Source: a virus
Direction: 5' to 3' (one strand)
IMG/VR virus record: IMGVR_UViG_3300008111_001299
Span: 1 to 42,055 of that record
DNA length: 42,055 bases
The notes under the pieces were generated by a model, which was given only the letters and a program-made list of their open reading frames with translations, was not told the DNA's origin and did not search any database. Shown here piece by piece: positions 1,746 through 42,055 of this stretch (position 1 is the stretch's first letter; every line of letters starts with the position of its first letter). A program made the translations under genes and the position numbers.

Positions 1746-1770
1746 CCGGGCTTTTTCCGGTAAATAGTTG

Positions 1771-3813
1771 ATGTTAAAAAAAATCCTCTTAAGTCCTTGG
1801 ACTGCACTAATAACACTAATTTTAGTTGTAGGTATACGAGCAGTAGATCCTACTTTTATAGAATCAGTTAGACTGCGTTATTTTGATACACTAATAACAA
1901 ATAAAGCACCTACTGAAAATAATATCATCACAGTAAACATAGACGAAAATGCCTTAGACAAATATGGTCAATGGCCTTTTAATCGAGATATCTATGCGCA
2001 ACTAATCGAAGACCTACACAAGCGCAATGCTGGACTAGTTGTATTCAATGTGCTGATGCCAGAAAAGGATAGACAAGGCGGAGATAGTTCTTTAGCCGCT
2101 ACCTTAAACAAATATCCTGTGATATTACCCAACATGCCTGCGGATCGTATGAAGAACATACCTCGAAAACCAGGTACGGCTATTATGGGTCCTGAGTTTC
2201 AGGAAATGATTATTCAATATCCAGGCATCATAGCCAATATACCCGATTTAGAAAAACGTGCCGCAGGAGTAGGTATAGTTAACACACTGCCGGAAATAGA
2301 TGGTGTCAATCGCAGAATGCCATTGATAGTATCTGTAGATGGTAATGTTTATCCTAGCCTTGCTATGGAAGTTCTTAGAGTGGCAGCAGGCGACTCAACC
2401 ACACAGATTAAACTATTTGAAGGTGGCGTAGAAAAAATGCGCATACCTAAGTTTGGTCCTATTGCTACTGATCCTCTAGGTCGTGTGTGGATTGATTGGA
2501 GTCAAAAATCTAAAAGTATATCAATGACTGAACTTCCTAAAGATCTTGGAGGTGCTGTTGTTATTGTAGGTGTTGCTGCGGCAGGAATAGGAAACCCTGT
2601 GCCTTCTGCTATAGGATCAGTATGGCCTCACGAAGTACAGGCTGCTGTAATAGGTACGATGTTTAACAATGTGGTAATACAACGCCCTGACTATGCCGAC
2701 GGTGTTGAGATACTGGCTTTGGCCCTAGCAGGCATAGTATTATTATTTTTAACGAGGTGGACCTATGTTGGAATTATCAGTGGTGTTGTTATTATTGGTT
2801 CTGTCATTCCTATTTCTCAATACCTGTATTCATCTAATCTTTGGCTCTTTGACGGCACTGCGTTGGTTGCTGGGCTTGTTATTGTCATGCTTCATGCTTA
2901 TGGCGTTAAATTCATAAGCGAGTTCTTACAGAAGCAGGCCATAAAGAAACAGTTTGCTGGCTATTGCTCTAAAGAAGTTGTAGAGATGTTACAGAAAGAT
3001 CCAGACTTAATCAAACGTGGTGTGCGTAAAGATGTATCAGTTATGTTCTCTGACTTACGTGGCTTTACACCTATCGGTGAACACTACGGTGATGACGTAG
3101 GTGGACTTGGCAAGTATATGAATGGTTATATGGATGCTATCAGCAAACCTATTATGGACAACAAGGGTATGGTCATCAAGTATGTAGGTGATGCGTCAAT
3201 GCACATACATGGTGCTCCTATTGATGATCCTAACCATGCTCGCACTATTGTTCAAGTAGGACTTGAAATGTTAGACGCTGTTGACGAGTATACTAAACTA
3301 ATGGAAGCACAGGGATTACCTCCAGCCGCTATGGGTTGGGGCTGTAACACAGGTATTGGTTTTATTGGCGAGATGGGATCAACAGACCGTCACAGTTACG
3401 ACATATTAGGCGACATGGTTTCGACCGCCGCACGTTTAGAAGCACGTTGTAAGGCCTATGGGGTGTTGGCTATTATTGGTGCTGAAACCTACAACAGAAC
3501 CAAAGACGACTTCTTCTATCTAATGCTAGACAACTTACAACCTAAAGGCAAGACTGTGGCAGATTTAATTTACACAGTAATACGTCCACGTGGTGAGGAC
3601 TACACTAGAGATAAGATAGCACACGAAGTAATGCACGACTTGTATCGTCAGAAAAAGTTTGACGAAGCCGCTGCTATGTGTAAAAAACTAAAGGGTAACT
3701 TTGGGGGTCAAATGGACAAGTACTACAAGATTTGGATTGAACGCTGTGAATTCATGAAACAGCAGGATCTAGGACCTAACTGGAACGGCGAGTTCATCGC
3801 ACACGAAAAGTGA
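1771..3813 (+). CDS. CHASE2-domain class III adenylate/guanylate cyclase
   Basis: This 680-residue protein has a TM segment at ~11-24, a periplasmic CHASE2-like sensor at ~30-300, three TM helices at ~312-380, and a cytoplasmic class III cyclase domain at ~418-600. Visible catalytic residues are the metal ligands Asp428 (MFSDLRGFT) and Asp474 (KYVGDASM) and the adenine-selecting pair Lys470 and Asp544 (SYDILGD); these predict cAMP rather than cGMP. Arg555 is present, but the usual transition-state Asn (VNxAAR) is Ser551 (VSTAAR). ATG 1771 is preferred over the TTG at 1768. A short hairpin (1745-1761) sits in the gap upstream. The expected reaction is ATP to cAMP plus PPi, perhaps with reduced activity. 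Confidence 0.85.
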   Translation: MLKKILLSPWTALITLILVVGIRAVDPTFIESVRLRYFDTLITNKAPTENNIITVNIDENALDKYGQWPFNRDIYAQLIEDLHKRNAGLVVFNVLMPEKDRQGGDSSLAATLNKYPVILPNMPADRMKNIPRKPGTAIMGPEFQEMIIQYPGIIANIPDLEKRAAGVGIVNTLPEIDGVNRRMPLIVSVDGNVYPSLAMEVLRVAAGDSTTQIKLFEGGVEKMRIPKFGPIATDPLGRVWIDWSQKSKSISMTELPKDLGGAVVIVGVAAAGIGNPVPSAIGSVWPHEVQAAVIGTMFNNVVIQRPDYADGVEILALALAGIVLLFLTRWTYVGIISGVVIIGSVIPISQYLYSSNLWLFDGTALVAGLVIVMLHAYGVKFISEFLQKQAIKKQFAGYCSKEVVEMLQKDPDLIKRGVRKDVSVMFSDLRGFTPIGEHYGDDVGGLGKYMNGYMDAISKPIMDNKGMVIKYVGDASMHIHGAPIDDPNHARTIVQVGLEMLDAVDEYTKLMEAQGLPPAAMGWGCNTGIGFIGEMGSTDRHSYDILGDMVSTAARLEARCKAYGVLAIIGAETYNRTKDDFFYLMLDNLQPKGKTVADLIYTVIRPRGEDYTRDKIAHEVMHDLYRQKKFDEAAAMCKKLKGNFGGQMDKYYKIWIERCEFMKQQDLGPNWNGEFIAHEK

Positions 3814-7606: not shown

Positions 7607-8278
7607 ATGTCTTCAATACTAGAAGAAATCTTTAATAGACCGTTTGACTTTGAAGCCAAACCTATGCATCCTAATCACGGTCAGGCTGTGGAGATCTTGA
7701 TTTTTCCCTGTTGTCATAATGACGACAACGAACCTATGACATTAATTGCTCCCAGTATCAAAGAAGGTCCGTGGATCGCAGGGGGTGCTGCTCTACGATG
7801 GTATCAAAATCAACCGGTATCTGAATCGGACATCGACATTTTCTGTGCCAGCGAAGAACAGGCTAACAGGCTTATCGAACACATTAAAAGTTATGGTAGA
7901 TACAGTACAAAATATGAAAGCGACAATGCTATTACTCTTTCTTACTACTCTAAAGAACATAACAAAGAATGGACTTTACAAGTTATCAAACGGAGATACT
8001 TTCGAAGCCTAAAAGAAGTTATTGATAACTTTGATATTTCTGTGTGCCAAATTGGTACAGGAGGAAACGAATGGCTATTAGGCAATGACACTGCTCGTGA
8101 TATTCGCGAGCGTAATCTTAGAATGTATATTCCCTTACAACCAGATGCTGCCAAAAGACTAGCCAAATATTGGACCTACGGATATCGACCTGTAAAGGGT
8201 CTACTATCTGCTGTTCAAACTAATCCTGTGGCTAAAAAAATGTTCCAATCTAATGAGGATTACGAAAATGCGTTCTGA
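7607..8278 (+). CDS. nucleotidyltransferase-fold protein
   Basis: Residues 57-60 (IAGG) with AAL, followed by SDIDIF (74-79), match the GG...DxD signature of pol-beta-type nucleotidyltransferases. A later FDISVCQIG strand could supply the third carboxylate (near residue 144). The C-terminal ~40 residues are helical and basic. Substrate unknown: tRNA CCA-addition is unlikely because almost all tRNAs here already encode CCA; a protein or small-molecule NMP-transferase is possible. Its stop overlaps the next start, so translation is probably coupled. Confidence 0.65.
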   Translation: MSSILEEIFNRPFDFEAKPMHPNHGQAVEILIFPCCHNDDNEPMTLIAPSIKEGPWIAGGAALRWYQNQPVSESDIDIFCASEEQANRLIEHIKSYGRYSTKYESDNAITLSYYSKEHNKEWTLQVIKRRYFRSLKEVIDNFDISVCQIGTGGNEWLLGNDTARDIRERNLRMYIPLQPDAAKRLAKYWTYGYRPVKGLLSAVQTNPVAKKMFQSNEDYENAF

Positions 8279-8855: not shown

Positions 8856-9445
8856 TCACTTTAAAAGACTTTATGGAAACTGTGGATTATCGCATCACTG
8901 AAGGTAATGCCTACGGTTGGCAATGCTTTGGTCCAAATGCGTATTCTTTAGATTCCTGGAACGGCGATCAAGATGGGCACACTGTTAACATTATTTTTGA
9001 TACTAAAGATCAAACAGTGTATCAAGCAATGGTCTATGACTATGCTCGGAATCGTGCTTACCGCATGACTAATCCTGATTTCAAAGAAGACTTTGACACA
9101 GAATGTCAAAATCGTGATATCCTAGATATGGCCTGGGAAGATGACGAAGGCAATCCTATCAAATATGTAGATTTAGAAGTAGAAGAAGATTTTATTGAAA
9201 AGGCTCGTTCTATTGTCAATGGGGAAGACTATGATACTCGAATACAAGTTCCTGTTGAGTTCACTGATGAAGAACTATTGACCTATATGAAAATGGCTCA
9301 CGATCGTGATATGACTTTTAATGCTTTTGTTGAAATGACATTGAAGGCTGCGATTGATGAAATTAAAATTAGAAAAGAATTAGACGATATTCTACCTGAG
9401 TTTCCTGTAGATAAAATCAAAAAGAAAAAGAAGGGTAAAAAGTGA
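8852..9445 (+). CDS. phage hypothetical protein (197 aa)
   Basis: An alpha/beta N-terminal part (ITEGNAYGWQCFGPNAY) is followed by an acidic middle, a helix resembling a ribbon-helix-helix/antitoxin C-terminus (ELLTYMKMAHDRDMTFNAF), and a Lys-rich end (KIKKKKKGKK) that could bind nucleic acid. DNA or RNA binding is inference. It is coupled to the genes on both sides by 4-bp overlaps. Confidence 0.65.
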   Translation: MITLKDFMETVDYRITEGNAYGWQCFGPNAYSLDSWNGDQDGHTVNIIFDTKDQTVYQAMVYDYARNRAYRMTNPDFKEDFDTECQNRDILDMAWEDDEGNPIKYVDLEVEEDFIEKARSIVNGEDYDTRIQVPVEFTDEELLTYMKMAHDRDMTFNAFVEMTLKAAIDEIKIRKELDDILPEFPVDKIKKKKKGKK

Positions 9446-15111: not shown

Positions 15112-15200
15112 GGACAAGTGCGCTGAATTGGTTGAAGGCAACGGACTGTAAATCCGCCACATAAGAAACGTTGTAGGTTCGAATCCTACCTTGTCCACCA
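15112..15200 (+). tRNA. tRNA-Tyr(GTA)
   Basis: Acceptor GGACAAG/CTTGTCC, anticodon loop CTGTAAA, long variable arm as expected for bacterial Tyr, T-arm GTAGG-TTCGAAT-CCTAC, A73 and encoded CCA. Confidence 0.9.
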
Positions 15201-15205
15201 TTAAG

Positions 15206-15356
15206 AAATAGCATTGTCGGGTATCGTTTGTGGACGCACAGACTCATGAGGAATAGGGCCATCTTACTCCTCTGATAAAACCGAGGGCAATGGCTTATGA
15301 GGAGCATCGAACTCCACTCAGAAATACGCTTCATCCCATAGGGTGTAATGTTATTT
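15206..15356 (+). ncRNA. structured inter-tRNA RNA element
   Basis: The 162-nt gap between tRNA-Tyr and tRNA-Asp has no convincing gene. Its ends pair (15206-15217 with 15345-15356, 12 bp with three wobbles). Inside, GCCAT/ATGGC encloses CCTC/GAGG near 15258-15298. It could be a processing structure or a small RNA. Function unknown. Confidence 0.45.
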
Positions 15357-15362
15357 TTTAAT

Positions 15363-15437
15363 GGTCCCATAGTATAGCGGTAAGTATAGCGGCTTGTCAC
15401 GCCGTCGGCAGGGGTTCGATTCCCCTTGGGACCGCCA
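15363..15437 (+). tRNA. tRNA-Asp(GTC)
   Basis: Acceptor GGTCCCA/TGGGACC, anticodon stem GCGGC/GCCGT with loop TTGTCAC, G73 and encoded CCA. Confidence 0.95.
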
Positions 15438-17831: not shown

Positions 17832-17895
17832 CTTAACGGCAAAGTAGTAGGCTTTTAACCTATTAATCAGAGTTCGATTCTCTGTGCCCCTACCA
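17822..17895 (+). tRNA. tRNA-Lys(TTT)
   Basis: Acceptor GGGGGTA/TGCCCCT, anticodon stem TAGGC/ACCTA-type with loop TTTTAA-region giving TTT, T-arm CAGAG-TTCGATT-CTCTG, A73, CCA. Confidence 0.9.
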
Positions 17896-17982
17896 TATAA
17901 AAACACACTTAACTCTAAACGTAGTTGGAGTACGAGGAAAGGCCACCTTCTAGGAAAACGGCATAAGTGTGTTTCTATATGG
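17893..17982 (+). repeat. 19-bp inverted repeat joining tRNA-Lys and tRNA-Met
   Basis: 17893-17911 and 17964-17982 are inverted copies with one mismatch; the core AAACACACTTA/TAAGTGTGTTT is perfect. The left arm starts in the CCA of tRNA-Lys and the right arm ends in the first bases of tRNA-Met. The 52-nt interior has an ACTC/GAGT hairpin. Possibly an RNase III-type processing stem. Confidence 0.6.
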
Positions 17983-18055
17983 TAATGTAGCATAATGGTA
18001 GTGCAACACCTTCATACGGTGCCCAGTGAAAGTTCAACTCTTTCCATTACCACCA
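17981..18055 (+). tRNA. tRNA with CAT anticodon (Met, or lysidine-Ile)
   Basis: Acceptor GGTAATG/CATTACC, anticodon stem CACC/GGTG with loop TTCATAC, A73, CCA. Elongator, initiator or Ile2 identity cannot be settled here. Confidence 0.9.
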
Positions 18056-20478: not shown

Positions 20479-20562
20479 GCGAGTGTGGTGGAATGGTATA
20501 CACAGCAGACTTAAAATCTGCCAGCCTCGGCTATGCGGGTTCGACTCTCGCCACTCGCACCA
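20479..20562 (+). tRNA. tRNA-Leu(TAA)
   Basis: Acceptor GCGAGTG/CACTCGC, anticodon stem GCAGA/TCTGC with loop CTTAAAA, long variable arm (CCTCGGCTATG region), A73, CCA. Confidence 0.95.
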
Positions 20563-20568
20563 AATTAT

Positions 20569-20643
20569 GCATCGTTAGTTCAGCGGTAGAACGTCGCCCT
20601 TACAAGGCGAATGTCAGTGGTTCGACTCCATTACGATGCACCA
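20569..20643 (+). tRNA. tRNA-Val(TAC)
   Basis: Acceptor GCATCGT/ACGATGC, anticodon stem TCGCC/GGCGA with loop CTTACAA, A73, CCA. Confidence 0.95.
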
Positions 20644-20648
20644 AATAT

Positions 20649-20740
20649 GCCTCTGTAGTTTAATGGTAAAACAGCGGATTTATATCCCGTGTGCAACAGA
20701 TAATTGGCCAATGTGGGTTCGACTCCCGCCGGAGGCACCA
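20649..20740 (+). tRNA. tRNA with TAT anticodon (Ile, AUA) and a 22-nt variable region
   Basis: Acceptor GCCTCTG/CGGAGGC, anticodon stem GCGGA/CCCGT (four pairs, one A-C) with loop TTTATAT giving TAT, T-arm GTGGG/CCCGC, A73, CCA. The variable region (20691-20712 approx.) is far longer than in normal tRNA-Ile. Confidence 0.7.
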
Positions 20741-20769
20741 TTGACATACTTTAGAAAAGATTGTATAAT
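20741..20769 (+). promoter_or_regulatory. consensus sigma-70 promoter
   Basis: TTGACA (20741-20746) starts directly after the CCA of the preceding tRNA; 17 nt; TATAAT (20764-20769). It serves the small gene at 20776 and the tRNAs beyond. Confidence 0.85.
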
Positions 20770-20775
20770 AACATT

Positions 20776-20928
20776 ATGAAATTATATGAAGCAACAATAA
20801 GAACCAAAGACGGTAAAGAATTTAAAGACCGTGTAGGTGCCAATTCTGCTGAAGAAGCAAGAATGCTATTACAGCAACGGCACGGCCCTAGGGCTGTTCC
20901 ATATGTTCCTCATATGATTCCAAGTTAA
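20776..20928 (+). CDS. small phage protein (50 aa)
   Basis: The ATG lies ~6 nt after a consensus -10, so the mRNA is nearly leaderless. The product reads as a compact conserved small protein (MKLYEATIRTKDGKEFKDRV, AEEARMLLQQRHGPRAVPYV). It ends 1 nt before tRNA-Ser(GCT). Unknown function. Confidence 0.7.
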   Translation: MKLYEATIRTKDGKEFKDRVGANSAEEARMLLQQRHGPRAVPYVPHMIPS

Positions 20929-20929
20929 C

Positions 20930-21019
20930 GGAGAGTGGGCAGGATGGTAATGCAGCGGATTGCTAATCCGTAGATCGTAGTAATATGGTCAGTGGGTTCG
21001 ACTCCCACACTCTCCACCA
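20930..21019 (+). tRNA. tRNA-Ser(GCT)
   Basis: Acceptor GGAGAGT/ACTCTCC, anticodon stem GCGGA/TCCGT with loop TTGCTAA, long variable arm, T-arm GTGGG/CCCAC, A73, CCA. Confidence 0.95.
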
Positions 21020-21039
21020 TTTTTATAAAAGGAAAAAAA

Positions 21040-21210
21040 ATGAAACCAGGTCCAAACTATAAAATGACCAAGCAGTCCAAAAGATTTTTAGCCACTATTG
21101 TTGATCCTCATAAAAGGGCATCTTTCAAAGCAGGCAGTATTCAGGCAGAACTAGCAGCCTTGGTACAGCCTAGAAGAGAAAAAAATCGTAGAGAAACAAC
21201 CACAGAATAA
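21040..21210 (+). CDS. small basic protein (56 aa)
   Basis: AAAGGA precedes ATG 21040; a longer frame would start inside tRNA-Ser. The product is strongly basic (KMTKQSKRFLATIVDPHKRA, QPRREKNRRE), fitting a nucleic-acid-binding role, which is inference. Confidence 0.65.
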   Translation: MKPGPNYKMTKQSKRFLATIVDPHKRASFKAGSIQAELAALVQPRREKNRRETTTE

Positions 21211-21220
21211 GTAATTTATT

Positions 21221-21294
21221 GGGGGATTAGTTAAATGGGATAACAACGGCTTTGCAAGCCGTGATTAACAGTTCGATTCTGTTATCCTCCACCA
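21221..21294 (+). tRNA. tRNA-Ala(TGC)
   Basis: Acceptor GGGGGAT/ATCCTCC (one G-U at the third pair, as Ala often has), anticodon stem CGGC/GCCG with loop TTTGCAA, A73, CCA. Confidence 0.95.
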
Positions 21295-21299
21295 GATTT

Positions 21300-21373
21300 G
21301 CCGCTTTAGTTAAATGGTATAACAGTTGCCTTGTAAGCATCAATCGTTGGTTCGATTCCATCAAGCGGCACCA
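21300..21373 (+). tRNA. tRNA-Thr(TGT)
   Basis: Acceptor GCCGCTT/AAGCGGC, anticodon stem GTTGC/GCATC (one U-U mismatch) with loop CTTGTAA, A73, CCA. Confidence 0.9.
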
Positions 21374-21389
21374 AGATAACCAAAATGTC

Positions 21390-21417
21390 TTGACAAAGAC
21401 AAAAAAGAGTGTATAAT
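21390..21417 (+). promoter_or_regulatory. sigma-70 promoter for the structured leader and following operon
   Basis: TTGACA (21390-21395), 16 nt, TATAAT (21412-21417) with TG just ahead of the -10. The start is expected at about 21424, at the foot of a strong hairpin. Confidence 0.8.
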
Positions 21418-21424
21418 AAGTTTT

Positions 21425-21696
21425 GTTGTGTAGCAATACACAACCGGCGAGGTAGAAGGTAGATGAGGATAGACACAGGTTTAGGCTCCAAGCCTACTCC
21501 AAACTACAATCCAACTGAACATTGGAACGTGTTTATGTGATCCGACCCCAAAGACTGTCATTTGTTAATCGGAAATATATAGACCTCTGTGTATTGTATT
21601 TTGCACATTGTCAACGAAGACTACAACTCTTCATTGTATATTGTCCGGTCTATTACTTGACCTTTTACCAAACCGTTTTTATAAAGAGAGACACAA
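21425..21696 (+). ncRNA. ~270-nt structured 5' leader RNA
   Basis: No convincing gene lies between the promoter and ATG 21697. The RNA would begin with GTTGTGTA/TACACAAC (21425-21444) closed by a GCAA tetraloop, followed by TAGGCT/AGCCTA (21482-21496) and TCCAA/TTGGA (21510-21526). This may be a stabilising 5' structure or a regulatory leader. A 74-codon frame across part of it is judged spurious. Confidence 0.5.
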
Positions 21697-22269
21697 ATGA
21701 ATATTACATTACGCAAGGCAAACGCTGTTCAAAACAGCATCAATGATGCAGTTAAAAACATCAAAGTTGAGTTGAACATAGAACTCAACGAGTTTCAAAA
21801 CATCGAGGAAATTATCAGCAAGGCTAATAATGACCTTGTAAACAATGATGGTCGTAGGCAGGCTCTTACCATGGCTCTATATAATATCCGAGCCCTTGTA
21901 GGTACAGCCAATGCCTCTAGCGGTATTGATACTGCACTGGCCAAGGCAGCATTCATTGACAAGCGTATTGGTCAACTAGAAGAATTAGCCAAGGCTACAG
22001 AAATGACTTCTTTGGAAGTTATTAAAGGTAAGATCGAAAAGATCAAAAATGACAAAGGTGAAAACCGTCGTAGCCTATATGGTTACGGAGACACGGTAAC
22101 AACATCCGTTCTTGGTAAAGAACAGATTGCTCAGGCTAAGGCAGAAATTCTTAATCTGAAAAAGCAAAAACAAAAACTCAACGACGAAATTCTTGAGTTG
22201 AATATCAAAACTGAGATTCCTCTCAGCGATGATGTAGTTAAGACACTACAAGCAGAAGGACTGCTGTAA
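21697..22269 (+). CDS. coiled-coil phage protein (190 aa)
   Basis: The product is mainly helical: an N-terminal part (MNITLRKANAVQNSINDAV), a central helix pair with LAKAAFIDKRIGQLEELAKA, a loop with RRSLYGYGDTV, and a Lys/Glu/Leu-rich coiled coil (QAKAEILNLKKQKQKLNDEI). I do not recognise a function. GAGAG lies before the ATG. It is encoded between a structured leader and a large structured RNA, on the same predicted transcript. Confidence 0.75.
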   Translation: MNITLRKANAVQNSINDAVKNIKVELNIELNEFQNIEEIISKANNDLVNNDGRRQALTMALYNIRALVGTANASSGIDTALAKAAFIDKRIGQLEELAKATEMTSLEVIKGKIEKIKNDKGENRRSLYGYGDTVTTSVLGKEQIAQAKAEILNLKKQKQKLNDEILELNIKTEIPLSDDVVKTLQAEGLL

Positions 22270-22551
22270 CAGACCCCGGGGTCCCTTCCTCGTTATTAAA
22301 GGGGGTGATTGGCTTCACCAAAACGCCAGGGCGCACACGATCGCTGCCCCAAGGCCCTCTTTAGGGGCGACTTGAGAAATCGTGGAGGCAGAAGCAGAAC
22401 TGACTCTGTAAACGTAAATTCTGATCGACAGGGTAGACAACTCAGTCTAGGGCGGAACAGGGGACCGTGGCTAGACACTATATTAAAGTACATTGAACGA
22501 ACCGAGTATTCTGGTAGCAAACACATAAGTGGTCAGTGTACTTCAATATAG
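22270..22551 (+). ncRNA. large structured RNA, 5' domain (GOLLD/ROOL-like candidate)
   Basis: About 290 nt without a plausible gene. Visible pairings: GGTCCC (22280-22285) with GGGACC (22461-22466) closes the domain; GGTGA/TCACC hairpin near 22304-22319; CACGAT (22336-22341) with ATCGTG (22379-22384) crossed by CTGCC (22344-22348) with GGCAG (22387-22391), a possible pseudoknot; ACTGA-CTCTGT (22399-22409) with ACAGGG and TCAGT (22428-22446). A 15-nt-arm hairpin (22478-22492 with 22537-22551, one mismatch) follows. Class assignment is speculative. Confidence 0.55.
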
Positions 22552-22559
22552 AATTTATC

Positions 22560-22634
22560 GCAGAGTGGAGAAGGTGGTATCTCGGCAGGCTCATAACCTG
22601 TAGGTCGGCGGTTCGACTCCGTCCTCTGCAACCA
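22560..22634 (+). tRNA. tRNA with CAT anticodon (Met), embedded between structured RNA domains
   Basis: Acceptor GCAGAGT-type with CTCTGC, anticodon stem GCAGG/CCTGT with loop CTCATAA, T-arm GGCGG-TTCGACT-CCGTC, A73, CCA. Second CAT tRNA of the window; one may be the initiator or a lysidine-Ile tRNA. Confidence 0.9.
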
Positions 22635-22636
22635 AG

Positions 22637-22875
22637 TTATTGATAGTAGTACAAGATCCGATCAACGATCGAAAGACAATACCGAGCGGGTGGAACTGCA
22701 GAGTTGGTGCATCGTAGGTGCATTGTTGGCTGCAATACGATCAACGGCCTTTTACAGGGTAAAGAGATTGAGCAGTAACGGATTCCATGTTAGGCTGGAC
22801 TATAGAAGCAGGTGCTGTAATGCCTGGGTGGCCTTGGGTATCGTCCCAAACCAAGACTTCAGTATTACTATCAAT
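22637..22875 (+). ncRNA. large structured RNA, 3' domain
   Basis: The 248-nt gap between tRNA-Met and tRNA-Arg(CCT) has no convincing gene. ATTGATAGTAGTAC near its start pairs with GTATTACTATCAAT near its end (14 bp with one G-U). Inside are ATCGTA/TACGAT near 22711-22741 and TTGGG/CCCAA near 22834-22849. Probably the continuation of the preceding RNA. Confidence 0.5.
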
Positions 22876-22882
22876 ATTCTAA

Positions 22883-22957
22883 CTCGCTGTAGTTCAATGG
22901 ATAGAACAGTTCTCTCCTAAAGAACAAATTCAGGTTCGATTCCTGATAGCGAGGCCA
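22883..22957 (+). tRNA. tRNA-Arg(CCT)
   Basis: Acceptor CTCGCTG/TAGCGAG, anticodon stem GTTCT/AGAAC with loop CTCCTAA, T-arm TCAGG/CCTGA, G73, CCA. Confidence 0.95.
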
Positions 22958-22974
22958 TGAGTAAATAGTTTTAT

Positions 22975-23048
22975 GCGGGATTAGTTTAATGGTAAAACAG
23001 CAGATTTCCAATCTTCGGTCAAGAGTTCGATTCTCTTATCCCGCTCCA
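22975..23048 (+). tRNA. tRNA-Gly(TCC)
   Basis: Acceptor GCGGGAT/ATCCCGC (same as tRNA-Gly(GCC)), anticodon stem GCAGA/TCTTC with loop TTTCCAA, T73, CCA. Last tRNA of the array. Confidence 0.9.
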
Positions 23049-23055
23049 AATAATT

Positions 23056-23631
23056 ATGCTAGTTATCGATCAAAATAAAACCTTTCGTAAATTTGATTTT
23101 AGTTCTGTGATTTCTGAAGAAGATAATCAAGAAGCCTGCAGAATAGTAAAGAGCATAATAGCAGATGGTAATTATTTTACCAATTCACCTAAGTATCAAA
23201 CTAAAGAAAATATATTTGCTCGTCCTGAACCAGTTTGGTTAAAATACAGGATGAGTTTTTTATTTTCTGTATTCATGTATCTGGGTCGAGAAGTTAAAGT
23301 AGGTAACATGATGGCCTGGTCGTTTATGACTAATCTCGAGGGTGCAGAAAATCGAGAAACACTATGGCACCATCATTGGCATCCTACTAAACCAGAAGCC
23401 AAAATGTTCAGTGGAATTTGGTATCTACATATTCCTGATGATGTTAAAGATCGAGATTACTGCGGAACAGAAATGGCTCCAAATGGGTTAGATCACGAAG
23501 ATAGATTTTTTGTAAAACCTAGCAATCATTCATGGTTGCTTTATCCCTCGGATAAATGGCATCGACCCGGTATTGTACAAAGTAATCAATATAGATTTAT
23601 ATTAGCCGCAGACATAGAATACTTCGATTGA
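23056..23631 (+). CDS. Fe(II)/2OG oxygenase-like protein
   Basis: The 191-residue product has TLWHHHWHPTKPEAKMFSGI (~residues 95-115) with candidate proximal iron ligands, a WYLHIPDD strand, and the distal WHRPGIVQSN...YRFILAADIEY (His and Arg) at the C-terminus. It resembles phage 2OG-Fe(II) oxygenases that start the beta-helix with HxH/HxD. It starts 8 bp after the last tRNA without a clear ribosome site. The substrate is unknown. Confidence 0.65.
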   Translation: MLVIDQNKTFRKFDFSSVISEEDNQEACRIVKSIIADGNYFTNSPKYQTKENIFARPEPVWLKYRMSFLFSVFMYLGREVKVGNMMAWSFMTNLEGAENRETLWHHHWHPTKPEAKMFSGIWYLHIPDDVKDRDYCGTEMAPNGLDHEDRFFVKPSNHSWLLYPSDKWHRPGIVQSNQYRFILAADIEYFD

Positions 23632-23656
23632 CATCAGAGCAGTTTGGTGCTATAAT
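23628..23656 (+). promoter_or_regulatory. consensus sigma-70 promoter
   Basis: TTGACA (23628-23633), overlapping the preceding stop, 17 nt, TATAAT (23651-23656), then AAGGAG and ATG 23677. Confidence 0.85.
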
Positions 23657-23676
23657 ATAACTTTAAGGAGTGAGAT

Positions 23677-24216
23677 ATGGCACCGTGGATTCAAAACGTA
23701 GCACTTAGCGACATCCGTAAAGGGTTTCATATCGATGCGGGCATCAACTCTATGCTGATCCAAATTTGCGATCCGCCAGGAGATTTTCCTACTCCAAAAT
23801 ATCAATTCAAAGAAGTTCATCAGTTTCAGTTTTTGGACGTTGAAGAAAAGGATCATGTTTTGGACGAGGCAATGCGTTGTAGTCAAGAACAGGCTAACGA
23901 ACTTGTACGTCTGTTACAACGTGCATTTGAAAATCGCATGAATGTTGTTGTTCATTGTCATGCAGGTGTGTGTCGCAGCGGGGCAGTCTGCGAAATTGGT
24001 GTTATGCTAGGCTTCCGTGATACTGAAGCATTCCGTAGTCCTAATCTACTGGTCAAGCACCGTATGATGCGAGCCTTGGGTTGGACCTACGACGAGCAGG
24101 AACCACATTCTATTAATGGGAAACCTTTGACAGAAGATTGGACTAACGACAACGAAAAGATTTTTACACTGGCTGCAGAGCGTAGAGCACACAGAGAAAG
24201 AGAAGGTGATATATGA
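23677..24216 (+). CDS. Cys-based protein/dual-specificity phosphatase
   Basis: The signature HCHAGVCRSG at residues 93-102 is the HCx5R(S/T) loop, with nucleophile Cys94 and phosphate-binding Arg100. An upstream FLDVEEKD or CDPPGD segment could supply the general acid. The 179-residue length fits small DSP-type enzymes, which dephosphorylate phosphotyrosine/serine proteins or other phosphoesters in the cytoplasm. AAGGAG precedes the ATG. It is coupled to the next gene by an ATGA overlap. Confidence 0.8.
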   Translation: MAPWIQNVALSDIRKGFHIDAGINSMLIQICDPPGDFPTPKYQFKEVHQFQFLDVEEKDHVLDEAMRCSQEQANELVRLLQRAFENRMNVVVHCHAGVCRSGAVCEIGVMLGFRDTEAFRSPNLLVKHRMMRALGWTYDEQEPHSINGKPLTEDWTNDNEKIFTLAAERRAHREREGDI

Positions 24217-36890: not shown

Positions 36891-38165
36891 ATGTCTATCA
36901 ATAATTCAAAAACTTTCTGCATGCACCCGTTTACTGGTCTTGCAACTAGAGAAGATGGTGCGATCAAAATCTGCTGTCGAAGCCTTCCTATAGGTTGGAT
37001 ACAAGAAAACAGTTTAGAACAAGTTTGGAATAATGACAAAATGCAGCAGGTTCGTAAACAAGTTTTATGTGGTGAGAGACCAGAGGTTTGCAAACCGTGT
37101 TTCGACTTAGAAGATCAAGGAGTTGAAAGCCTTCGTCAGCGACATATTAATGGCGTTATTCCCGAAGCAAGGATTAATCTGTATCCAAATGCGCTGGATC
37201 AACTTCGAGAAGATTATACCATGCCTTTTGAATTTCCTACTATGGAAATTAAGATCAATAATCTTTGTAATCTTAAATGCAGAATGTGCAATCCTTTAGA
37301 CAGCACCAGTTGGCAGGATTGGGATCAAGTGAAACCATTCTATGAAAAAGAAAATAATTACCTAGTTCCTACTATATCAAAATTAGTTAGAAAGCCCGGC
37401 CAATACATAGGCCCGTTTGAAGATACAAATCACTGGTGGGAAAATTTTGAACAACTACTTCCTCATTTCCGTAGAGTAGAATTTGCCGGCGGGGAACCTT
37501 TGATGGATCCTTATCATTATCGTATTTTAGATATGTTAAAACCTTACGGAAAAAACATAGAAATAAAATATGCTACTAATGGCACTGTATTAGGAATCAA
37601 AGGAGGTAGAACCATTCACGACTACTGGCCTTACTTTAAATCTGTAGCGGTCAATGTCAGCATAGACGGTATACATGATGTTTATAATTACATTCGCACT
37701 AACAGCAATTTTGATGATGTAGAAAAGAACATAAAAGAAATACAAAGTATTCCCAATGTAAGCAGAGTAGTTGGTGCGTTTACTGCTCAGGCTGCTAATA
37801 TTTTACAGATCTCCGAGTGCATTGATTATTTTTTAAATCACATGGACATTGTTTTTTACAGTCACAGAGTTAGTTACCCCAATTGTTTATCAGCACAGGT
37901 TCTACCCCAAGAGTTAAAACAGTTGGCTATAGAAAGATTACGGAATGTTGAAAGTAAATTATGGACGTTTGATAAAATCAATCAAAGTAGCCTACTTGAA
38001 AAAGTCACTCGACAGCAGATCAAAGACAATATAAATTATCTACAAGCCAAAGATCAACATCATTTATGGAATGATTTTTTAGAATTCAATAGAAAATTAG
38101 ATGAAACTAGAAATCAGAAACTATTAGATGTGATTCCAGAATTTAAAGAATACGTTAACGATTAA
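36891..38165 (+). CDS. twitch-domain radical SAM protein
   Basis: An N-terminal Cys-rich auxiliary-cluster region (FCMHPFTGLATREDGAIKIC, Cys10, Cys28/29; VCKPCFDLE, Cys67 and Cys70) precedes the radical SAM CxxxCxxC at Cys126, Cys130 and Cys133 (NNLCNLKCRMCN), then VEFAGGEPLMDP (the GGE motif) and YATNGT. The auxiliary 'twitch' cluster placed before the core is unusual but recurs in phage proteins. It would cleave SAM to a 5'-deoxyadenosyl radical for peptide or sugar modification. First gene of a three-gene radical SAM operon. Confidence 0.85.
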   Translation: MSINNSKTFCMHPFTGLATREDGAIKICCRSLPIGWIQENSLEQVWNNDKMQQVRKQVLCGERPEVCKPCFDLEDQGVESLRQRHINGVIPEARINLYPNALDQLREDYTMPFEFPTMEIKINNLCNLKCRMCNPLDSTSWQDWDQVKPFYEKENNYLVPTISKLVRKPGQYIGPFEDTNHWWENFEQLLPHFRRVEFAGGEPLMDPYHYRILDMLKPYGKNIEIKYATNGTVLGIKGGRTIHDYWPYFKSVAVNVSIDGIHDVYNYIRTNSNFDDVEKNIKEIQSIPNVSRVVGAFTAQAANILQISECIDYFLNHMDIVFYSHRVSYPNCLSAQVLPQELKQLAIERLRNVESKLWTFDKINQSSLLEKVTRQQIKDNINYLQAKDQHHLWNDFLEFNRKLDETRNQKLLDVIPEFKEYVND

Positions 38166-38167
38166 AA

Positions 38168-39064
38168 ATGTTTAAAGTTACTAGTGTATGGCCTCATCAA
38201 GATCAATTAAAAGTTGAATGGAACCTGGGTAAACGATGTAATTACGATTGCAGTTATTGTCCTGCCAGTGTGCATGATAACTTTAGTCCGCACACCGACA
38301 TTAACATTTTAGAAAAAACTGTAGATCGTTTATGTGAACTAGATAAACCTTTGCGTATTAGCCTAACCGGCGGTGAGCCCTGCGTACACCCGGACATAGA
38401 AAGTTTATTAGAATACTTTAAAAGAAAAAATATCTACTGGGTCAATATAACAACCAACGGCACAAGAGGATATCAATGGTATTTACAGCACGAAATGTTT
38501 TTTAACCATTTAGTTTTTAGTCTACATTTTGAACAAGATTGGACACGTATAGTCGATACTATATTAAAATATTACGATAGCACACAGCAAGATTTCTTTG
38601 TAAATGTAATGGCACATAACAATAAGATGGATCATGTCAGAAATGTTGTTAAAGCATTTAGCGACATAGGAATCAAATATGCTGTTCGTAGAATCCGTTG
38701 GACGGAAGGGGATCATAATGTATTTGACGACCTTCGATATGATGGAAAAGATCTACAATGGATCTTGGAACAGGACGCTACAGCGAAACCTAATTGCAGA
38801 ATAGACAATGAAACGATTATTCATGCTAATGATGTAATAAAAAAACATATGAATCAATTTAAAGGCTGGACATGTAATGCTGGTCTCGAAAGCCTCATGA
38901 TCAATTGGGATGGAGAAGTGCATCGTGCAACTTGTAGAGTTGGTGGTAGCCTAGGCAACATATACCAAGGTACATTTACTGAGCAATTACAACCTATAAG
39001 TTGTACTAGAGATTGGTGTACCTGTGCAGCAGATATTCCTTTAACAAAGATTAAAAATGATTAA
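38168..39064 (+). CDS. radical SAM protein with C-terminal Cys cluster
   Basis: CxxxCxxC at Cys24, Cys28 and Cys31 (KRCNYDCSYCPAS), SLTGGEPCVHPD (GGE-type) and TTNGT. The C-terminus has WTCNAGLESLMINWDGEVHR, TCRVGG and CTRDWCTCAAD, giving at least five Cys for an auxiliary SPASM/twitch-like cluster. The 298-residue length is short for SPASM proteins. Paralogous to the next two radical SAM products. 8-bp overlap with the next gene. Confidence 0.85.
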   Translation: MFKVTSVWPHQDQLKVEWNLGKRCNYDCSYCPASVHDNFSPHTDINILEKTVDRLCELDKPLRISLTGGEPCVHPDIESLLEYFKRKNIYWVNITTNGTRGYQWYLQHEMFFNHLVFSLHFEQDWTRIVDTILKYYDSTQQDFFVNVMAHNNKMDHVRNVVKAFSDIGIKYAVRRIRWTEGDHNVFDDLRYDGKDLQWILEQDATAKPNCRIDNETIIHANDVIKKHMNQFKGWTCNAGLESLMINWDGEVHRATCRVGGSLGNIYQGTFTEQLQPISCTRDWCTCAADIPLTKIKND

Positions 39065-40148
39065 AGTGGATGCTGTTAGACTTGTAAAACCAGAGCCCAT
39101 GATGATTACTTGGGATGTTGGTCGCAGATGTAATTACGACTGTAGTTACTGTGAAATATCTCGACATGATAATATCAGTAAGTTTCACAGCATTGACGAG
39201 TATTTAAAAACATTTGGATTTATAAAGCAGTGGACCAACACTTATAATAGTAACAGAAAAGAAAAAGTATCTACAAATATAAATTTCACAGGCGGTGAAC
39301 CTACACTTAACCCCGCTCTTTGGGAATTGGCTGACGCAATTAAAACAGACTCCGACGACTTTAATCTAAGTTTGACCACTAACGGTGCGTGGAATAGAAA
39401 ATATACAGACAGACTGTTAAAAAGATTCAATGGAGTTACGGTCAGTTATCACACAGAAGGTCACACTAATTTAAAAAAACAGGTAATAGAAAACATATTA
39501 GAATTATCAAAGACTGATATGCGTTTACAGGTAAATCTAATGATGCATGTAGATCATTGGAATGAATGTTTAGAAGTTTTTGATGTGTTAAAATCTAATA
39601 ACGTACTGGTAAAACCTAGACCAATCGGCGACGGTAACATAGAACGCACAGGATGGTTTATAGATTCAGACGGATCAAATAGAAGAACCAGTCATCAATA
39701 TACTGCTGATCAACAACTATGGTTTTCAACTATAGCAGGTCACAACATTTCTGTATGCGAAAACAAAACAGAAGGCACGGGTCTAGGAAGAGGGTGCTGC
39801 GGCGGTCGTTGTATGGAAGGTAAGATAAACAATCAATGGCAGGAAATTAAAATTATCGATACTAATTTTAAAAACTGGAACTGTATGGTCGATTGGTTTT
39901 TCCTGCACATAGATCAACATACAGGTTTAGTCTATCATCATCAAACCTGCCAGGCTCTTCACGAAAATAAAAGAGGAGCCTTAGGTAATCTTATAGATTC
40001 AGATATTTTAATAAAAGATCTAGAACAAAGAATGCTCAATAAAACAGCGATTGTCTGTCCTAATAATAGATGTGGTTGCGGAATGTGTATTCCAAAGTCT
40101 AAAGACGGTGTTGTTTTTAAAGAACTCTGGGACAGCGTAGTTAACTAA
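39057..40148 (+). CDS. radical SAM protein with Cys-rich C-terminus
   Basis: CxxxCxxC at Cys25, Cys29 and Cys32 (RRCNYDCSYCEIS), INFTGGEPTLNP and LTTNGAW. The C-terminal third has many Cys (RGCCGGRCMEG, NWNCMVDWF, TCQALH, VCPNNRCGCGMC), enough for one or two extra iron-sulfur clusters. 363 residues. It converges with and slightly overlaps (8 bp) the - strand radical SAM gene. Confidence 0.85.
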   Translation: MIKVDAVRLVKPEPMMITWDVGRRCNYDCSYCEISRHDNISKFHSIDEYLKTFGFIKQWTNTYNSNRKEKVSTNINFTGGEPTLNPALWELADAIKTDSDDFNLSLTTNGAWNRKYTDRLLKRFNGVTVSYHTEGHTNLKKQVIENILELSKTDMRLQVNLMMHVDHWNECLEVFDVLKSNNVLVKPRPIGDGNIERTGWFIDSDGSNRRTSHQYTADQQLWFSTIAGHNISVCENKTEGTGLGRGCCGGRCMEGKINNQWQEIKIIDTNFKNWNCMVDWFFLHIDQHTGLVYHHQTCQALHENKRGALGNLIDSDILIKDLEQRMLNKTAIVCPNNRCGCGMCIPKSKDGVVFKELWDSVVN

Positions 40149-41136
40149 CCTTGTGCTTTGCTAAGGTCACTTCTCCGTTACATAAACACTGTAATTGTTT
40201 ACATATAACTGGTTTAATTTCCGGTGAAAAATTCTGCACAAAGTCTTGATCAAAAATATTAAAATAATAATCTAGTCCGTACAACTTCTGATTACAGTTT
40301 ACAGTAATATCACCATTAAATAAAACCTTTATATCATTTACGCCAACGGTGCATTCCCAACCAGAGAAATAATTTAATTTGTTTAATCTTATCCAAGAAT
40401 CCGAAGGCAATTCAAAAACTTCACCGTCTTCGAATGTTACCCAATATCTGTTGATAGTTCCTCTAAAAAATTCTTCTACTTCCTTAAAGTCAGGAACTCT
40501 TTTCTTTGCTGATTGCAAATAGTCCTTCTGCTCGGATGGATAACTGGTAACTCCGTCGATATGTATAGCCTTAAGAATAATAGGCCAATTATATTTGCTT
40601 TCTGACTGAAACTTTTCAACGATGCTTCGACATTTGTCAAAGTTCTTTGGATCCATGAGTACGTTAGCAACTACCATATGCTTATGAGAAAACAAATAAT
40701 CGGCTACTTCTATAATATGATTAGGATCACAGAATTCATTATGAACCGATATCTCAATATGATCAAACAGTTTAGCATACTTTTCCCACCAATGTACTTT
40801 TCTAAATCCATTAGTAGCCATATGAACAATAATTCTATCCTGATACTTGTTTTTAAAATGGGTTAAAAACTCAGGCAAATGTTTCCATAAGGTAGTTTCG
40901 CCACCTAACAAATACAACTGTATAACATCTTTGTTATTTTTTAGGTAATAATCGAATAGGTGAGTAAAATTATTTTTTAATAATTCTACGTTCTCTCCCG
41001 CGGGCCAGGGAATATCACCTTCGTGAGAACCAGGAAAACAATAATTACAACTGTAATTACAGGTATTTCCTATTGCCCATTCTACTCTGATCTTTTTAGG
41101 ATCATGATTGTTTTCAATTTTAATAATCTTTTTCAT
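40141..41136 (-). CDS. radical SAM protein with SPASM-like C-terminus
   Basis: CxxxCxxC at Cys26, Cys30 and Cys33 (NTCNYSCNYCFPGSHEG), LYLLGGETTLWKHLPEF and HMATNGFRK. The C-terminus has WECTVGVNDIKVLFNGDITV, NCNQKLYG and VICKQLQCLCNGEV, resembling the 38168 product. The 331-residue protein is translated in coupling with the broken upstream radical SAM gene (4-bp overlap). The substrate is unknown. Confidence 0.85.
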   Translation of the reverse strand: MKKIIKIENNHDPKKIRVEWAIGNTCNYSCNYCFPGSHEGDIPWPAGENVELLKNNFTHLFDYYLKNNKDVIQLYLLGGETTLWKHLPEFLTHFKNKYQDRIIVHMATNGFRKVHWWEKYAKLFDHIEISVHNEFCDPNHIIEVADYLFSHKHMVVANVLMDPKNFDKCRSIVEKFQSESKYNWPIILKAIHIDGVTSYPSEQKDYLQSAKKRVPDFKEVEEFFRGTINRYWVTFEDGEVFELPSDSWIRLNKLNYFSGWECTVGVNDIKVLFNGDITVNCNQKLYGLDYYFNIFDQDFVQNFSPEIKPVICKQLQCLCNGEVTLAKHKVS

Positions 41137-42055
41137 TCTACCAGTGTACTTAGTTCTGGGAAATACTCTTTGAAATTAGTCTTTCTAAGTGTATCCAATT
41201 TTTCTATATATTCTTTAAACGCTGGCAATAAATGCGTATGATCCTCTGCGTCCATGAAGTCTAATACTGCCTGCCAACGTTTCCACCCATAAGGATTTTG
41301 TTTCCAGAAGTCTTCGTCTTGGCGATAGTTTTCATGCAACCAATTAGCCAACTCCTCAAACTTACGTCTTACTTCTGCTTTGTCTTCTAGAGGTAAACAA
41401 CGTATACTCAAGAATGTAGGAATGTACAATAAGTGCATATTAACAATGCCTCCACCTGCTTGTATTCCCCCAGTGACATTTTCAAAGTTTATTTTTTAGA
41501 ATCTGTATAGCAGTAGCGATACTGACTTCTATGTTGCTAGGAGTGTTATCTAATATATGAAGATTTTTTTCTATCTTCGCCCAATCGCTAGGATATCTTA
41601 TGTAGTAATTTCTTTCTCCCACTGCGTCAATACTAAAACCTACTTTAACTTTTTTAAATTTTTTCCATAGATCTATAATTGAATCATCTACTAATAAACC
41701 GTTAGTGTTATATCTAATTAATATTTTGTCAGCATATCCTTGGCGTATAATTTCTTCTAAGAATGTTTTATGTTCTTTGATCAGTAAAGGTTCACCGCCT
41801 GCAAAATAAACCTGTTTGAGATTAGGAATCTGTGCATACATTTCTTTCCAGAATTCTGGATTTTCATGCCAATAATTGTCAAAAGTTTTTTGATCCCATT
41901 GCATCTGGTCTTTGATTGCATCATGCTTGAACAAAGGAAATATCTTTTTATGATCTTGAACCCATAGACTACTGTCATGCGGACTACACATTACACATTT
42001 CAAGTTACAGGTGTGGCCAAGTCTCAAATCCAAATAGACCAATTTATCAGGTACT
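41133..42055 (-). pseudogene. radical SAM (twitch-type) gene, frameshifted and cut by the window end
   Basis: The 5' part (42055-41482, open past the window edge) encodes the radical SAM core: GHTCNLKCVMCSPHDSS, VYFAGGEPLL and RYNTNG. It ends at TGA just after ILKNKL. The C-terminal part continues in the +1 frame (KINFENVTGGIQAG...), giving YIPTFLSIRCLPLEDK and ending at 41133. The switch lies at a run of six A on the - strand (41497-41492); removing one A restores a single frame. It may be a real mutation, an assembly or sequencing error, or programmed frameshifting. The upstream N-terminal region is not in the window. Confidence 0.75.

Follow-up and report, generated by a model that had tools for sequence, protein, structure and literature searches.

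Does the gene-free sequence on either side of a tRNA-Met gene in this phage tRNA array belong to one large RNA or to several smaller ones? We analyzed 42,055 nt of DNA (the window) from the IMG/VR virus contig IMGVR_UViG_3300008111_001299, which has a + strand array of 28 tRNA genes that extends from 15.1 to 23.05 kb. The region under study is the gap from a 190-aa ORF (ORF190) to the tRNA-Arg gene at 22883, and it is split by the tRNA-Met gene. The first-pass annotation had placed a CAT tRNA between two gene-free blocks, which agrees with the tRNA-Met called there, and had proposed that the blocks and the tRNA form a single structured RNA of about 600 nt. The elements that we distinguish are, from 5' to 3', a promoter, module A, ORF190, module B, module T, tRNA-Met, module C, and tRNA-Arg (Table 1). 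Elsewhere in the window, we noted a phage-encoded protein with CHASE2 and adenylate/guanylate cyclase domains (1768-3813) and an apparent cluster of radical-SAM-like proteins (36891-42042), of which 38168-39064 matches Pfam Radical_SAM and the remainder were assigned by visual inspection for CxxxCxxC-type motifs.

Independent occurrence of the modules in related phages

A search with ORF190 identified 80 IMG/VR loci, which we infer to come largely from freshwater samples on just two indications, the contig lineage and the occurrence of GOLLD, which is a lake RNA. Comparison of their non-coding blocks by blastn revealed three independent histories: A is nearly always present, and B and C have each been gained and lost. 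There are 54 distinct loci that contain ORF190, tRNA-Met, and a following tRNA; B is present without C in 33 of these, C without B in 3, both in 4, and neither in 14. In relatives that lack B and its tail, the stop codon of the ORF lies ~6-8 nt from tRNA-Met, and in relatives that lack C, its slot either shrinks to a few nucleotides or is filled differently, in some cases by a 75-aa RpoZ-like gene. Because B and C occur together in only 4 of the 54 arrangements and singly in 36, the proposal of a single RNA with an embedded tRNA-Met is refuted; B, T, and C occur independently of one another. That proposal drew on the contiguity of the gene-free blocks around the tRNA, and the GOLLD RNA of some relatives does enclose a tRNA, but B and C assort independently and fold separately, no pairing between them is needed or found, and neither matches Rfam, so that a GOLLD/ROOL-like RNA of ~600 nt has almost no chance of being the correct description. 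Comparative sequence analysis indicates that A, B, T, and C are separate structured RNA genes that alternate with tRNA genes in a phage tRNA operon and are reshuffled among relatives.

The blocks are gene-free, as had been suggested: no reading frame in B or C is conserved across relatives, which have other frames, most of them shorter, where the window has ORFs of 80 and 76 aa.

Known RNA families did not account for the modules. With Rfam models at the gathering score, the whole window returned only tRNAs and two antisense-tRNA artefacts (labeled Plastid-ycf2 and Plastid-psbl-rps4), and tmRNA was found in the window neither by ARAGORN nor by Rfam. Relaxing the threshold to E ≤ 1 for 20500-24000 again gave only tRNAs and antisense-tRNA artefacts; the GOLLD, ROOL, HEARO, OLE, RNase P, and tmRNA models, which had been named as a check on the first-pass annotation, did not match the blocks. 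At E ≤ 0.5, five relatives yielded tRNAs and antisense-tRNA artefacts, plus GOLLD elsewhere in one of them. The same kind of search detected full-length GOLLD (RF02032) in the tRNA arrays of eight relatives at 177-229 bits, which serves as a positive control and bears out, for phages related to this one, the remark that GOLLD occurs beside or around tRNAs. The suggestion that structured RNA, possibly of a new class, lies among these phage tRNA genes thus holds, and membership of GOLLD or ROOL does not.

BLAST of the region against 50,697 phage records returned tRNA matches only, and queries with A, with ORF190, or with a member of the B family had no match in the same records, a search that divergent members could escape. 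Exact core patterns of A and B were likewise absent from 84,980 prokaryote genomes, where again divergent members could escape. Within these searches, A, B, and C were seen only in uncultured phages. We conclude that A, B, T, and C represent previously undescribed RNA families, although RNAs of phage tRNA operons as such are already known.

Table 1. Features of the studied region and GOLLD RNAs in related loci (L, relatives)
Feature	Coordinates	Strand	Description
Sigma-70 promoter of A	21390..21417	+	TTGACA, 16 nt, TATAAT; 12/12 matches
RNA module A	21420..~21687	+	~260 nt; 5' hairpin, long closing stem, several covarying hairpins
ORF190	21697..22269	+	Conserved 190-aa, mainly helical protein, between A and B
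RNA module B	22272..22479	+	207-nt family; four consecutive H-type pseudoknots, P7, 3' hairpins P10 and P11
B pseudoknot I	22277..22304	+	P1 22277-22281/22288-22292 crossed with P2 22282-22287/22299-22304
B pseudoknot II	22305..22328	+	P3 22305-22307/22316-22318 crossed with P4 22310-22313/22325-22328
B pseudoknot III	22329..22384	+	P5 22329-22332/22346-22349 crossed with P6 22336-22341/22379-22384
B P7	22350-22358/22364-22374	+	Inside pseudoknot III, between P5 and P6 strands
B pseudoknot IV	22386..22423	+	P8 22386-22391/22400-22405 crossed with P9 22395-22399/22419-22423
B near-invariant 3' part	22431..22476	+	P10 22431-22434/22440-22443, P11 22445-22450/22471-22476
B P11 inner stem	22453-22455/22465-22467	+	Covarying
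T module	22478..22551	+	~19-bp closing stem 22478-22496/22533-22551 around 36-nt interior
tRNA-Met (CAT)	22559..22634	+	Ordinary tRNA gene between modules, no part of the RNAs
RNA module C	22635..22876	+	~245 nt; closing stem 22638-22652/22862-22876, internal branched hairpins, conserved core TCCATGTTAGGCTGGACTA
GOLLD in relatives	L069:3570-4027, L077:4188-4649, L061:1982-2447, L076:828-1290		
GOLLD in relatives	L028:4496-4961, L023:2541-3005, L046:14-400, L033:23-401		

Structures of modules A, B, C, and T

Folding energy was only mildly unusual for B (z -2.99), C (z -1.34), and the whole 613 nt (z -1.21), and so the case for better-than-chance structure is carried by covariation. Minimum free energy folds of single sequences were misleading and were set aside: they give the pair 22280-22285/22461-22466, which the first-pass annotation had read as closing a domain, but homologues put those bases in P1/P2 and the P11 hairpin of B. 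In A, B, and C, compensatory changes exceeded those in column-shuffle and slide controls. Covariation beyond phylogeny was assessed with a home-made tree-based null, which gave 10 significant pairs for B, 5 for A, and none for C. By these measures, covariation clearly supports the structures of A and B, and the support for C is good but comes from few sequences.

Members of the B family were collected from viral contigs with a degenerate pattern derived from the 3' core, which matched at least 120 stretches in at least 95 distinct contexts; nearly all members are ~200-209 nt long. A covariance model of B has one match in the window (146.5 bits, with an identical sequence, L003, in the training set) and recovers four members on which it was not trained (L103, L112, L120, and L127) at 64-98 bits. 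In the nested helices, 85% of alignment cells are paired, compared with 35-47% when the structure is slid, and the covariation score is 0.429, compared with 0.163 after shuffling and at most 0.103 after sliding. Eight of the 10 column pairs that were significant in the tree-based test lie inside the structure.

The four pseudoknot-forming helices cross the nested helices and were not used in building the covariance model. In a cross-sequence shuffle test they scored z 6.1 (P1), 4.4 (P3), 12.1 (P6), and 9.9 (P9), and five negative-control loop pairs scored -1.2 to 3.1; this test leaves phylogeny in, and the negative controls are its sole guard. P3 is the weakest of the four, because its z is only 4.4. 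Among their partners, P4 reached z 12.6, and P2 has changes on both sides at all six pairs, with 93% of cells paired. A candidate pseudoknot had been put forward in which CACGAT/ATCGTG (22336-22341/22379-22384) is crossed by CTGCC/GGCAG. The former pairing is P6 of pseudoknot III; the latter is peculiar to this sequence, and its bases fall in P5 and P8. Among the pairs listed in the first-pass annotation, P6, the closing pair of C, and the T hairpin are confirmed, and 22280-22285/22461-22466 and CTGCC/GGCAG are not. The core of B, GAGUAACAGCUC, presumably resembles the GTPase-centre hairpin of 23S rRNA and the tRNA D-arm, a likeness that we judge coincidental.

B is mobile within tRNA arrays. 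Among the matches listed, 39 of the 95 contexts have B directly 3' of a tRNA, in many cases with A or ORF190 absent, and the tRNAs directly before it are of at least 11 kinds (Thr, Asn, Leu, Glu, Ile, Trp, Arg, Val, Tyr, Gly, and Met). Wherever B is directly downstream of a tRNA or an ORF, it starts a few nucleotides past its end. All 791 of the tRNAs located within 2.5 kb of B in these contexts are on the same strand as B. Some arrays contain two divergent copies (L151:7422-7629 and 7724-7916; L174:5018-5220 and 2925-3117; L120:9627-9842 and 9032-9221).

Module A, a conserved RNA with its own promoter just upstream, was absent from the first-pass annotation, whose coordinates begin downstream of it. 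The promoter is conserved before A in most relatives, and a few have a tRNA directly before A instead. In an alignment of 51 sequences, 96.4% of cells in 62 consensus pairs are paired, 27 pairs have changed on both sides (shuffle maximum 13), and all five of the pairs that were significant in the tree-based test lie inside the structure. The gene immediately 3' of A is ORF190 or resembles rpoZ, and an ORF follows A in the relatives examined. ORF190 has no Pfam or PHROG match, and its predicted structure (pLDDT 80) has no convincing relative in the PDB. A profile search found weak, distant relatives in two isolated phages, CcrColossus (gp272) and Vp_R1 (VPR_086). We sought B in the records of both phages and found no match in either; an obligate partnership between ORF190 and B is thereby excluded. 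Separately, small proteins resembling RNA polymerase omega/Rpb6 are encoded between A and ORF190 in L008, L032, L071, and L079, and in the C slot of the tRNA array in others (including L006:2900-3150 and L013:6996-7246).

C usually comes after tRNA-Met. An exact pattern of its core matched 21 stretches, and an HMM extends the family to about 19 variants. The closing pair that had been noticed at approximately 22637-22650/22862-22875 is real, as a 15 bp stem at 22638-22652/22862-22876 that is 93% complementary and is kept in distant relatives with entirely different sequences (L084, L162, L175, and L082/L124). The proportion of paired cells is 90.3% (31-41% when slid), and 40 pairs have changes on both sides, compared with a shuffle maximum of 21; with 17 usable sequences, no single pair was significant in the tree-based test. 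One family found in the C slot (cluster 2) was rejected as an RNA, as it encodes an RpoZ-like protein.

T belongs to a numerous set of modules, each with a closing stem of 16-20 bp. The pairing of 22478-22492 with 22537-22551 in the first-pass annotation is confirmed as part of its slightly longer closing hairpin (shuffle z -4.5). In relatives, the T slot holds other stem-closed elements, mostly of 73-172 nt, with unrelated conserved interiors and sometimes in tandem, and similar elements are also found alone between tRNAs. A mechanical search returned 350 stem-closed segments of many families in 1007 tRNA gaps; as some of these segments are coding sequence, the true number of RNA families is not exact. 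Modules that we term T2-type are stem-closed and end in a tRNA T-arm with an acceptor-like strand immediately after it (after B in L007, L162, L186, and L276; also in L021, family 7). Further long-stem elements are present in the window between tRNA-Tyr and tRNA-Asp (15197-15365) and between tRNA-Lys and tRNA-Met (17891-17984), and each stem begins within the CCA end of the preceding tRNA and extends to the opening bases of the tRNA that follows. Another non-coding family, of ~234 nt, occupies tRNA gaps (usually between Thr and Gln) and contains the T-arm-like sequence GGGTTCRACTCCC (L005:222-453, L028:76-309, L061:2796-3028, L069:1629-1861, and L080:2126-2332). Other gap families between tRNAs that looked non-coding proved to be small-protein genes and were set aside.

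Possible biogenesis and action of the module RNAs

The reading that we consider probable is that this phage tRNA operon contains A, B, T, and C as independent RNA genes whose products are excised as stable, trans-acting RNAs. The operon, modules included, would be transcribed as one RNA; tRNA-processing enzymes (RNase P and the enzymes of tRNA 3' processing) would cut the transcript at the tRNA ends; and RNase III, judging by stem length, would probably cut the long stems of the modules. Such processing fits the arrangement because the ends of the modules abut tRNA ends or long stems. The small stable RNAs that are released would then act in trans during infection, a mode of action that is favored because B is mobile, its core is invariant, and it is strictly co-directional with the tRNAs. 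Since the modules are consistently found in a tRNA context and sister modules carry tRNA-like T-arms, our first guess is that the targets lie in translation or tRNA metabolism, but we hold this tentatively and think it more likely wrong than right. By analogy with GOLLD and ROOL, the modules may assemble into RNA particles. A broader proposal, possible but on balance doubtful, is that, in a large group of uncultured freshwater phages, the tRNA arrays serve as shuffling libraries for over 10 families of small structured RNAs, among them A, B, C, and many stem-closed T modules, forming an RNA takeover kit that is processed like tRNA and rRNA and in which B is a new type of pseudoknot-chain RNA with a molecular activity of its own.

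A long stem is able to stop exonucleases or to recruit RNase III, and the modules might accordingly act only in cis, with A as a 5' leader that regulates ORF190 or rpoZ and with B, T, and C as spacers that steer or protect the processing of tRNA precursors. The position of A before an ORF in the relatives examined and the adjacency of B and T to tRNA ends, where they could stabilize the 3' ends of mRNA or tRNA precursors, are what this account would predict. We nevertheless regard it as unlikely, as B occurs at many positions in the arrays, where ORFs as well as 11 kinds of tRNA precede it, and its 3' core is near-invariant; four pseudoknots far exceed what a spacer needs; and 14 of the 54 loci manage with neither B nor C. 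The modules could also be decoys or antidotes against host nucleases that cut tRNAs in defense, since they travel with phage tRNAs and some sister modules have tRNA T-arms, but no anticodon-like loop was recognized in A, B, or C, which makes this quite improbable. The long terminal inverted repeats of C and the T modules, which are found in tandem and at several positions, would suit mobile DNA cassettes in which the repeats are recombination sites and the RNA fold is incidental. Against this, B has no terminal inverted repeats, the internal helices covary as RNA and the signal is lost when structures are slid, and no recombinase was noticed beside the modules (without a dedicated search); we consider the cassette explanation very improbable. 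We therefore retain excision of independent, trans-acting RNAs as the preferred explanation.

Comparison with known phage RNAs

The locus is a real finding whose anatomy has been corrected: it contains several new families of phage tRNA-operon RNAs, one of which has an unusual chain of pseudoknots. tmRNA also contains a series of pseudoknots, but no tRNA-like domain was seen in B. GOLLD is, like the modules, a phage RNA of tRNA arrays and occurs in the same arrays in relatives, where it overlaps a tRNA gene that lies in its 5' part. It is nevertheless an RNA separate from B, with which it coexists in L061 and L076, and it has no match in the window; in some GOLLD members the tRNA is inside one continuous RNA, whereas the two sides of tRNA-Met in the region studied here occur independently. 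ROOL, a large RNA, resembles B in being pseudoknotted, encoded by phages, and located near tRNA islands (PMC12286853), but B is much smaller and has no match to the Rfam ROOL model. Recent work has shown that GOLLD and ROOL assemble into RNA-only nanocages, for which a function is still lacking (PMC12286853).

Since the work on T4, small RNAs without an assigned job have been familiar components of phage tRNA operons. The many conserved RNA families that are interleaved with tRNAs and move like cassettes in a widespread group of uncultured phages make the question comparative and testable, and the common positions, common long stems, and T-arm-bearing modules yield concrete predictions about RNA biogenesis. 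For structure determination, B stands out as a clear choice, because it packs four successive pseudoknots and a near-invariant 3' core into 207 nt.

In concept, the modules come nearest to rnaC (139 nt) and rnaD (119 nt), the species 1 and 2 small stable RNAs located at the end of the T4 tRNA cluster; like them, the modules lie in a phage tRNA operon and are co-directional with its tRNAs. RNase III is reportedly needed for the T4 species 1 RNA. A T-arm-like hairpin is present near the 3' end of rnaC, as in the T2-type modules, and beyond this 17-nt T-arm word we found no sequence homology to rnaC or rnaD. The T4 RNAs are small and stable, and their role is unknown (PMC3014915, PMC9697503). B and C differ from them in being larger, B in having four pseudoknots, and the arrays described here in that many families share them.
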